The notes under the pieces: model-generated
What the model saw: the letters and a program-made list of their open reading frames with translations, nothing else
What the model was told of the DNA's origin: nothing
Database searches by the model: none
Source of the DNA: Gloeocapsa sp. DLM2.Bin57
GTDB lineage: Bacteria; Cyanobacteriota; Cyanobacteriia; Cyanobacteriales; Gloeocapsaceae
DNA length: 64,000 nucleotides
NCBI GenBank assembly: GCA_007693955.1
Contig: RECR01000050.1
Coordinates: 1-64,000 of the forward strand
Direction: 5' to 3'
Program-made: the position numbers and the translations under genes
In this document: positions 48,202-51,839 of the stretch, in pieces
How the letters are laid out: every line of letters begins with the position of its first letter
How positions within the stretch are numbered: the stretch's first letter is position 1

Positions 48202-48813
48202 ATGCCTAACCTTGAGCAAATAGATTCAGTTTTTTTAGAGAAGTTAGTCTGGACTGATTATCGTCTAGCGGTTATTTTTATGGTTATCTTACCGCTATTG
48301 CTTTTGCTTGCTGCTTTTCTGAGTAAGACTGAATGTGTCAAATGGTCATTAATTATTTATTGGCGCGTTGCTAGTTTGTTGATGATCACGGTTTATCTGA
48401 TGATCGCTTCTTTTCCCTTCAGCTTTCTTACTGGTTTAGCTGCGCGGGTATTGATTCCTATTTCTCTGTGGTTTTGGCAAGATTTAAACGAGGAAATCAG
48501 GGATTTACCGAAAAGTGTGTTCAAGCTGGTATTTAACTCTTGGCGTTGGGCGGTTACTATCTATTGTATCGCGGGAGTCTTGTTGACTATTCCTTTCTGG
48601 AATTGTGCTTTTAGTACGGGAATTAAGGATATCCCCTCCTGTAGAGTTTGGTTGCAACCACCTTGGGGTTATAAGGAGTTGATGCACCCCAATGGCGATC
48701 CCGGGGTTTTGGGATTTTTCGGGATCATGGGGCTAGTGGTTTATGTACTTTATTTACTCTATTTTATCTTTGTACGCTTAGGAAAACAAGGAAGAACGGC
48801 TTTAGAACCTTGA
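48202..48813 (+). CDS. DUF3177 family membrane protein
   Basis: This 203-residue protein of a conserved cyanobacterial family has about five membrane segments (residues about 20-41, 50-73, 80-95, 112-130 and 170-192). A soluble loop contains W-N-C-A-F and S-C-R-V-W-L-Q-P-P-W-G. The function is unknown. The start ATG at 48202 follows the cp12 terminator. Confidence 0.8.
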   Translation: MPNLEQIDSVFLEKLVWTDYRLAVIFMVILPLLLLLAAFLSKTECVKWSLIIYWRVASLLMITVYLMIASFPFSFLTGLAARVLIPISLWFWQDLNEEIRDLPKSVFKLVFNSWRWAVTIYCIAGVLLTIPFWNCAFSTGIKDIPSCRVWLQPPWGYKELMHPNGDPGVLGFFGIMGLVVYVLYLLYFIFVRLGKQGRTALEP

Positions 48814-48855: not shown

Positions 48856-48913
48856 TGTTTTAGGGCTTTACCTAGAACACTTCCTGGAGATATATTTAAA
48901 TCCGTAGCATTAA
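48856..48913 (-). pseudogene. 58-bp duplicated fragment of the upstream antitoxin gene
   Basis: These 58 bases match 49681-49738 (inside the antitoxin coding region) with only two mismatches (56/58). Read on the minus strand, the fragment encodes N-A-T-D-L-N-I-S-P-G-S-V-L-G-K-A-L-K, the antitoxin's N-terminal domain. The damaged toxin's stop codon (TAA at 48910-48912) lies inside the duplicated piece. It looks like a truncated second antitoxin left by tandem duplication or slippage. Confidence 0.85.
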
Positions 48914-49321
48914 GGAATAGGATATTTATTATTTTTAGGATGTTCGCCAGCATAATAAACTACTACCTTTTTTTCTTCAGGAATAGGGAAATAATAAAAG
49001 ACTCGTTCACCTTGTGTTATTTCATATTCCCAGCACCCTTTATATTTTTTGCCTTTTAAAGGAAATATCCTACCTGGATAGCGCTTATTTGGATGCTTGA
49101 TTAAATAAGCATAACATCTTACTATATTTTCTGGACATTGTTTGTTTTTTAAGATTATTCCAGTCTTGTTTTACACGCTTATTTTTGGCTTCGACTAACC
49201 ACTCTGGATTTTTAATAGCCTCAATAATCCAAGTTTCAAGTTGAAGAGCGTCTTCAAAAATATCATTAACATCTAACCTTAATTCAGCAGGTAAGTTGAT
49301 CTTATCTTTATTATCTGACAT
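48910..49321 (-). pseudogene. type II toxin (RelE/ParE superfamily-like) with disrupted frame
   Basis: The frame starting at ATG 49321 runs 78 residues and ends at 49085. A second frame continues to TAA at 48910 and encodes Q-C-P-E-N-I-V-R-C-Y-A-Y-L..., then F-P-L-K-G-K-K-Y-K-G-C-W-E-Y-E-I-T and V-V-V-Y-Y-A-G-E-H-P-K. That C-terminal half looks like a small mRNA-cleaving toxin of the RelE/ParE fold. Joining the frames near 49145-49150 (six T on the plus strand, six A in the message) gives a protein of about 140 residues. The break could be one extra base in the A6 run, or a 4-base tandem duplication just after it. A second in-frame start for the toxin half is not seen. Decay, a sequencing error, or transcriptional slippage at the A run are all possible. 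Confidence 0.75.
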
Positions 49322-49778
49322 CGCAGATTTGCTCTTTCTCTAAATAAAAAGCTTCTTCTAATTCAGGACTAGCAATCGCTATAGCACTTTCTTTCCATTC
49401 ATGTATTTTGGCTGTAAATTCATCCCAATTTTCACTTTCCTTCCCATAACGATAAGCTACTGAAATCTCTTCACTTAATTCTTGTAATTCATCATGATCA
49501 AATACAGAAAGCCAAACATAGGGATTATCACCTTGGATTTTTTGTCCAGTAAGAAGCATAACTACTGACAGTAAAATGTCAGCAAAATTTTGACTATATT
49601 GATTAAATTCCACATATTTGGCAATAACATCTCTCCGTAGAAGAGCAAATTGTTCGTCACGACGAGTAATTGTTACTGGATGTTTTAGGGCTTTATCTAG
49701 AACACTTCCTGGAGATCTATTTAAATCCGTAGCATTAATAATGGTGTCTTCAAAGATATGAGTACTACTGCTATTCAT
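49311..49778 (-). CDS. type II antitoxin, Phd/YefM-like N-terminus
   Basis: This is a 155-residue protein. Residues 15-50 (I-N-A-T-D-L-N-R-S-P-G-S-V-L-D-K-A and R-R-D-V-I-A-K-Y) resemble the DNA-binding Phd/YefM N-terminal domain. The C-terminal half is acidic and helical, as expected for the toxin-neutralising part. It is longer than typical Phd proteins (80-95 residues). It overlaps the toxin start by 11 bases, the usual antitoxin-toxin gene order. It probably autoregulates the operon. Confidence 0.75.
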   Translation of the reverse strand: MNSSSTHIFEDTIINATDLNRSPGSVLDKALKHPVTITRRDEQFALLRRDVIAKYVEFNQYSQNFADILLSVVMLLTGQKIQGDNPYVWLSVFDHDELQELSEEISVAYRYGKESENWDEFTAKIHEWKESAIAIASPELEEAFYLEKEQICDVR

Positions 49779-49948
49779 TTATATAGTTATTATTGATCTA
49801 CGTATATTTTTACGTACTTTTATTATAATGTCAAGCCGCTTCTCACTATGTCAGAGAGGGCGCTTTTCATGAGCGCCTTTTAACTTCGCAAAACCCAGAA
49901 TAAGATTTTAGGTTTTTATTGGCAAATGTAACTATTTATATGTAAAAG

Positions 49949-50827
49949 TTAAATTCCTGCTAAATCAAGGATTTGAGGTATTAACTCTTCTTTTTTAACC
50001 GCCATTAAATGTACTCCCTGACAAATGTCTTTAGCCATTTTTACTTGTTCTGCTGCGATTTTAATTCCTTCCCAGAGAGGGTCAGAAGCTTTTTCTAAGC
50101 GTTCAATGGTACTATCAGGAATATCTACACCAGGGACATAGCGGTTGATAAAGCGGGCGTTTTTAGCTGATTTCAGTAAAAAAATACCCGCTAAGACGGG
50201 TTTACCATAACTAGAAGCGATTTGAGTCATAAATTTGTCTAAACGATCAAAATCCGTGATTAACTGACTTTGGAAAAATTCCACTCCTGCTTCTATTTTT
50301 TGCTCAAAACGTTTTTGCAGACTTGACCAGCTTTTGAGTTGTGGATCGATCGCCCCTCCAGGGAATAAGTCGGGGATTCCGTCGGTTAAGGGGTTTTGAT
50401 TAATATCTAAACCTTGATTAAGATTGTTAATTAGTCGTAGCAGTCTCACGGATTCTAACTCAAAAACTGCTTTAGCTTCTTTGTGGTCTCCTGCTTTGAC
50501 TGGATCGCCAGTTAGGGCGAGAATGTTATTAACCCCCAATGCTGATGCTCCGAGTAAGTCAGATTCTAGGGCGATGGAGTTGCGATCGCGACAAGTCATC
50601 TGACAGATAGGTTCAATTCCCGCTTGTTTTAAGAAAACGCAAGCTACCAGGGAAGACATTCGCATTACAGCACGACTACCGTCGGTTACATTGATGCCAT
50701 GGACTCGGGACTCTAAGAGTTTAGCCACAGTGAGCATATGAGTTGGATCAGCGCCTTTAGGGGGAGCAATTTCGGCGGTGATGAGAAATTCTTTTTGAGC
50801 GATCGCCTGACGAAATTTATTAGACAT
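49949..50827 (-). CDS. metF: methylenetetrahydrofolate reductase family protein
   Basis: This 292-residue TIM-barrel protein has A-E-I-A-P-P-K-G-A-D-P near residues 18-28 and V-T-D-G-S-R-A near residues 44-50. Q-M-T-C-R-D-R-N, with the conserved CRDxN, lies near residues 75-82, and L-A-L-T-G-D-P near 105-111. Canonical MetF makes 5-methyl-THF for methionine synthesis using FAD. ATG 50827 is preferred: the longer frame (50857) would overlap trpS by 29 bases, while 50827 lies one base past the trpS stop. Confidence 0.88.
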   Translation of the reverse strand: MSNKFRQAIAQKEFLITAEIAPPKGADPTHMLTVAKLLESRVHGINVTDGSRAVMRMSSLVACVFLKQAGIEPICQMTCRDRNSIALESDLLGASALGVNNILALTGDPVKAGDHKEAKAVFELESVRLLRLINNLNQGLDINQNPLTDGIPDLFPGGAIDPQLKSWSSLQKRFEQKIEAGVEFFQSQLITDFDRLDKFMTQIASSYGKPVLAGIFLLKSAKNARFINRYVPGVDIPDSTIERLEKASDPLWEGIKIAAEQVKMAKDICQGVHLMAVKKEELIPQILDLAGI

Positions 50828-50828
50828 C

Positions 50829-51839
50829 TTATAAACTGGGTAAATAACCCAGGGCATTTTTAACTTTGATAAGGGTTTGATTGGCTACTGCACTAGCTTT
50901 GATTGCGCCTTCTTTTAAGACATTGTCTAGATAAGTTTTATCTTCTTTGATACTTTGATATTTACTTTGAATTGGTCGCAACGCTTCGATAACCGTCTCG
51001 ATGAGGAGGGGTTTAAATTGTCCCCACCCGAGATCTTGACATTGGTTAATTACCTCTGTTTTAGATTTTTGCGAAAGTATTCTATATAGTGTCAATAGGT
51101 TATCACATTCGGGACGTTCTGGATCATCAAACCAAAGTCCTTTAATAGGATCTGTTTTGGCTTTTTTAATTTTCTTCTCGATTAATTCGGGAGGATCTAA
51201 TAGGTTAATCCGACTCAAGTCAGAGGGGTCAGATTTTGACATTTTTCTTGTTCCATCGCTAATGCTCATAATTCTTGCTCCCTCTTCACGAATAAGAGGA
51301 TTAGGCATTTTCAACACTGGTGTATCAGGTGCAGCAAATTTATCGTTAAATCTGACGACGATATCCCGGGTTAATTCTAGGTGTTGTTTTTGATCTTCTC
51401 CTACGGGTACTAAATCCGCGTCATAGAGAAGAATATCCGCTGCCATTAATACGGGATAATCTAGTAAACCAACGCTGACGTTTTCTCCCTGTTTAACTGC
51501 TTTTTCTTTAAACTGAATCATTCTCTCTAACCAATTCAAAGGAGTAATACAGTTTAACAACCAGGCTAATTCACTATGAGCACTGATATGAGATTGTACA
51601 AAAATAGTTGAATATTCTAAAGAAATACCACAAGCTAGATAGAGAGCAGCGATGGTATAGGTATCTTCTGCTAGGGTAGTTGGATCATGGGGTACTGTGA
51701 TAGCGTGTAAGTCAACTACACAGAAAAAGTTATCATACTGGTCTTGTATTTGTGACCAGTTGCGAATAGCTCCTAAATAGTTACCTAGATGTAAATTTCC
51801 TGTTGGTTGTACTCCTGAGAGGACTCTTTTTTTACTCAT
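50829..51839 (-). CDS. trpS: tryptophanyl-tRNA synthetase
   Basis: This 336-residue class I aminoacyl-tRNA synthetase has the HIGH-equivalent P-T-G-N-L-H-L-G-N-Y near residues 12-21 and the KMSKS motif R-K-M-S-K-S near residues 199-204. D-L-H-A-I-T-V and G-E-D-Q-K-Q-H-L-E-L-T-R complete the TrpRS pattern. It lies one base upstream of the metF-like gene, so the two are coupled. Confidence 0.98.
   Translation of the reverse strand: MSKKRVLSGVQPTGNLHLGNYLGAIRNWSQIQDQYDNFFCVVDLHAITVPHDPTTLAEDTYTIAALYLACGISLEYSTIFVQSHISAHSELAWLLNCITPLNWLERMIQFKEKAVKQGENVSVGLLDYPVLMAADILLYDADLVPVGEDQKQHLELTRDIVVRFNDKFAAPDTPVLKMPNPLIREEGARIMSISDGTRKMSKSDPSDLSRINLLDPPELIEKKIKKAKTDPIKGLWFDDPERPECDNLLTLYRILSQKSKTEVINQCQDLGWGQFKPLLIETVIEALRPIQSKYQSIKEDKTYLDNVLKEGAIKASAVANQTLIKVKNALGYLPSL

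Follow-up and report, generated by a model that had tools for sequence, protein, structure and literature searches.

A toxin-antitoxin-like pair with a frame-broken toxin gene and a partial antitoxin copy in Gloeocapsa sp. DLM2.Bin57

Organization and genomic setting of the locus

A toxin-antitoxin-type gene pair was located in the window (the whole 64,000-nucleotide stretch of DNA analyzed here, taken from a draft genome of 3.45 Mb in 138 contigs). The module lies in the gap between two convergent genes, which encode a membrane protein and a methylenetetrahydrofolate-reductase-like protein. Both genes of the pair lie on the minus strand, antitoxin first; small, adjacent, co-directional genes in this order are found in the window, in homologues, and in plasmid copies. 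The features of the locus are as follows:

48202-48813 (+): one neighbor, 203-aa membrane protein
48856-48913 (-): 58-bp copy of antitoxin codons ~14-32
48910-49138 (-): 3′ toxin part in a shifted frame, TAA at 48912-48910; match to the toxin profile at E=3.6e-26
49085-49321 (-): 5′ toxin part, ORF with ATG at 49321; homologous to ~49140, then an out-of-frame tail to 49085
49135-49150 (-): frame lesion, 16 nt versus 12 nt (4 codons) in 16/16 intact homologues
49311-49778 (-): antitoxin coding sequence, 155 aa, intact open ORF
49681-49738 (-): source of the 58-bp copy, within the antitoxin gene
49799-49816 (-): putative antitoxin operator TACGTA-AAAATA-TACGTA, over the -10 region
49806-49834 (-): promoter-like site, TTGACA (49834-49829), 17 nt, AAAAAT; 10/12 matches
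49949-50857 (-): other neighbor, methylenetetrahydrofolate-reductase-like gene, named from sequence by eye

In one genome of the same genus (G002), the same two neighbors (88% and 90% amino acid identity) are 58 bp apart, versus 1135 bp in the window. The module is absent from both same-genus genomes searched (G001 and G002), which favors a gain in the window's genome over a loss in G002; no close relative carrying it was found. Since the 58-bp intergenic sequence of G002 does not align with the window, no target-site duplication was recognizable when the window was compared with that gap. The gap is not empty in G001, where it holds a different ORF of 253 aa; extra genes may therefore land in this gap repeatedly. 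The G001 ORF (L015:2110-2871) contains a lipase-like GHSLGAHVSG motif.

A hairpin (GGGCGCTTTTCATGAGCGCC) is present at 49857-49880, between the metF-like gene and the antitoxin gene. The genome contains nine copies of it when two mismatches are allowed (none in a reversed control), and it appears to be a small dispersed palindromic repeat or a shared terminator.

The toxin gene and the antitoxin fragment behind it

The toxin frame that opens at the ATG at 49321 stops at 49085 after 78 codons. Homologous toxin sequence resumes at ~49140 in another frame, which is open to the TAA at 48912-48910 and contains no ATG, GTG, or TTG start. The initial annotation had described overlapping toxin and antitoxin genes and a toxin broken in frame, and both points are borne out: the genes share 11 bp, and homology puts the two pieces in one toxin gene, so the break is real in this assembly. 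Homologues encoding the pieces as two separate proteins would have spoken against a break. The intact homologues have the toxin in one frame, directly after the antitoxin; together with the startless 3′ frame, this rules out two separate proteins.

The region ..WLVEAKNKRVKQDWNNL.. of the 5′ part aligns with WLVVAKNKRVNRDWEAL of the intact homologues. The linker from the conserved WEAL motif to the conserved PEN motif is exactly four codons long in all 16 intact toxins and 16 nt long in the window, and the four additional nucleotides coincide with an AAACAAAC tandem at 49147-49140. Based on this comparison, the best reading of the lesion, which shifts the frame after ~60 toxin codons, is a tandem duplication of 4 nt and not a one-base slip on the A6 run present at the break. 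Transcriptional slippage on this run had been suggested as a way to make some full-length toxin; neither as the source nor as the rescue of the frame is A6 slippage supported, since a one-base change would leave a linker of five codons, which is found in 0 of the 16 homologues. Downstream of the lesion, the 3′ frame keeps conserved residues.

The toxin could not be credibly assigned to any family of Pfam, NCBIfam, or PADLOC, and no member of its family scored above the cut-offs of Pfam and NCBIfam. The best match to PF05016 (E=0.039, in 1 of 18 toxin members) is below the cut-off, as is the TIGR02385 score (13.3 versus 27.9 bits). Compared by hhalign, a profile of the 18 toxins and one of cyanobacterial ParE/RelE toxins aligned over the C-terminal beta core with P = 2e-4; a control with the antitoxin profile gave 0.08. 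The C-terminal core had been called convincingly RelE/ParE-like; from the profile similarity, this likeness has modest support. AlphaFold models of the window's 3′ toxin part and of a Richelia homologue, both of low confidence (pLDDT 49 and 42), suggest a helix followed by strands, and nothing credible was found by sequence searches of the PDB. Like RelE/ParE toxins (PF05016, TIGR02385), the toxins of this family are small products of a second gene that overlaps or abuts the antitoxin gene; unlike them, they have a variable N-terminal extension.

The toxin gene is followed by a copy of antitoxin sequence, just as the initial annotation had noted; copy and source form a direct repeat (48856-48913 and 49681-49738; 58 bp, 56 identical, 825 bp apart). 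A 28-bp pattern from the repeat, allowing up to three mismatches, had no further occurrence in the genome, and no match in the reversed control or in the two same-genus genomes. The copy opens with the final base of the last sense codon of the toxin and the stop (TTAATGC..), and the toxin stop is inside the first bases of the copy, as proposed; a few bases at this point may be common to the native toxin end and the source. It had further been suggested that the copy may have ended the toxin early. This is not the case, since the window toxin ends in ..PIP-stop at the position where its closest intact homologues end (..PVP/PIP-stop).

The two substitutions in the copy are R21->I and D28->G, each in a column that is invariant in eight antitoxins. 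For this reason the antitoxin gene carries the ancestral letters, and it is the copy, with the derived bases, that has drifted. The copy comprises 19 codons and lacks its own start and ribosome site; both the C-terminal domain and the remainder of the DNA-binding region are missing from it. A partial second antitoxin of any use, one of the possibilities raised earlier, is not supported by such a fragment. A 40-aa ORF that reads through the copy from 48953 is most likely due to chance, and the best reading of the copy is filler DNA without a function, located at the toxin stop. Insertion by template switching, or tandem duplication via a shared TTAA followed by deletion, would explain its origin equally well. 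An antitoxin-derived copy behind the toxin was found in none of 44 homologous loci; the sole 16-mer match among them was in the downstream sequence of a locus (L083) at which no toxin was detected.

Antitoxin, control region, and relatives

The antitoxin consists of an N-terminal Phd/YefM-like region (aa 12-42) and a C-terminal domain of ~100 aa common to the family, and it is 39-49% identical to seven homologues over the full length. Its match to PF02604 (E=9e-4, 19.4 bits) is below the curated cut-off of 29.8 bits, and its relatives also score below the cut-off of TIGR01552 (11.4-19.8 versus 20.8). As in Phd/YefM-type antitoxins, ~30 N-terminal amino acids resemble the DNA-binding region, a putative palindromic operator lies over the promoter, and the antitoxin is the first gene of the pair. 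The C-terminal domain, in contrast, is outside those models, and the operator of this family is TACGTA-N6-TACGTA.

The window contains one exact TACGTA-N6-TACGTA site, which is the sole exact one in the 3.45-Mb genome. Of 44 homologous upstream regions, 30 contain the motif within one mismatch, compared with 2 of 4400 shuffles; many of these loci are related, and the 30 are not independent events. In many homologues, the spacing between TTGAC and the operator is unchanged, and a TATAAT-like -10 lies inside the operator. The operator is also retained at antitoxins for which no toxin was detectable (e.g., L059, L067-L069, L072, and L075). The conservation of this site suggests that it is bound by the antitoxin and serves as a putative autoregulatory operator.

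The distribution of the family is patchy. The module was present in 6 of 60 relatives in a first search, and among 391 genomes from the order, 41 have toxin matches and 65 have antitoxin matches. Among 51 open, near-full-length antitoxins, 21 have an adjacent one-frame toxin, 12 (the window included) a broken or partial one, a class somewhat inflated by drafts and contig ends, and 18 have none within 700 nt. For some of these 18, the partner may have diverged or been replaced, and one of the toxin-less class (G004) keeps a weak remnant of the toxin start. Broken or missing toxins are common in the family. At two loci (L073 and L075) the orphan antitoxin adjoins an ordinary-looking ParD/ParE pair downstream, as judged by eye, which suggests stacking or partner replacement.

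Proposed history of the locus and its significance

We consider it probable that a toxin-antitoxin-like module was acquired, that its toxin was lost to the gain of 4 nt, that the antitoxin and the operator were kept, and that the copy is without function. A two-gene module of type II would have been acquired horizontally and inserted between the convergent genes. Its Phd/YefM-like antitoxin would repress its own promoter via TACGTA-N6-TACGTA, as the conservation of the motif implies, and would bind the small RelE/ParE-like toxin. With the 4-nt tandem duplication (AAACAAAC), translation would leave the toxin frame and no complete toxin would be made. A separate repair or template-switch event, or tandem duplication and then deletion, would have left the 58-bp antitoxin piece at the toxin stop. 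Antitoxin and operator would remain as an antitoxin-only locus, a state that many relatives share. From sequence comparison we infer that the antitoxin represses its own promoter, that intact relatives are active as toxins, and in which order and by which mechanism these events took place. The best reading is that the toxin was recently inactivated and the antitoxin retained, probably still under its own control.

A sequencing or assembly error that conceals an intact toxin is unlikely: the genome is a draft of 138 contigs and the remainder of both toxin frames is open, but the 4-nt excess is in a non-homopolymer tandem, unlike the usual base-calling or homopolymer error, and other relatives carry broken toxins too. 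It is quite improbable that the break is a regulatory device, with toxin still made at a low level through RNA polymerase slippage on A6 or ribosomal frameshifting. The A6 run at the break would suit such a device, as would a 3′ frame that remains open to the native stop and keeps conserved residues. Rescue, however, requires +1 (or -2), not the -1 shift that a usual slippery heptamer gives; an A6 run is short for slippage of the polymerase, and the product would contain the five-codon linker that is absent from the 16 homologues. Moreover, the intact homologues are single-frame and have no conserved break there. The usual -1 programmed frameshift was rejected, being in the wrong direction.

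The two direct repeats, at a distance of 825 bp, enclose the toxin and the greater part of the antitoxin, and the gap that holds the module is empty in G002. Both facts would fit if the repeats worked as the ends of a mobile or recombining unit by which the toxin is carried or removed, and a cyanobacterial precedent exists in the RelE/ParE-like pair 1065/1067 of Microcystis aeruginosa, classed as ParE/ParD-like, which lies between 152-bp direct repeats and has an 11-bp deletion in the toxin gene of one strain (PMC7935541). Flanking direct repeats and damage to the toxin gene are thus shared with this pair; however, its repeats are borders outside the genes, whereas one repeat in the window is plain antitoxin coding sequence. 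Given also that further copies are absent from the genome and that none of the 44 homologous loci has an antitoxin-derived copy behind the toxin, we regard functional ends as very improbable. Literature searches on solitary antitoxins and on partial antitoxin duplications found nothing that corresponds to this locus.

Taken singly, the locus is an ordinary decayed toxin-antitoxin module. It is of wider interest as an entry point to a widespread pair that has no named family in the libraries searched and has a recognizable operator, and many antitoxins of this family have outlived their toxins. It is for these reasons that the family lets solitary antitoxins be tested, as being kept for anti-addiction or regulation or as simply decaying. 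Tentatively, and as a possibility that we hold with considerable doubt, the family may be an undescribed one, with a Phd-like antitoxin that has its own C-terminal domain, an unclassified RelE-like toxin, a TACGTA-N6-TACGTA operator in cyanobacteria, and remote relatives on actinobacterial plasmids. The toxin would be repeatedly inactivated and the autoregulated antitoxin kept for a function of its own, for example protection against related toxins on incoming plasmids.

The intact pair is also plasmid-borne in Nostoc sp. HK-01 and Pseudanabaena sp. ABRG5-3. On the Pseudanabaena plasmid ABRG53a (L089:935-2890), it adjoins a divergently transcribed caspase-family gene. This recalls the Microcystis pair, the antitoxin of which is cleaved by a neighboring caspase homologue (PMC7935541). 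No relative of the module was found in viral contigs. Rhodococcus plasmids carry remote relatives of both proteins, encoded by an overlapping gene pair annotated as hypothetical; in two such pairs (L090:2025-2836 and L091:1989-2806) the overlap is 4 bp.
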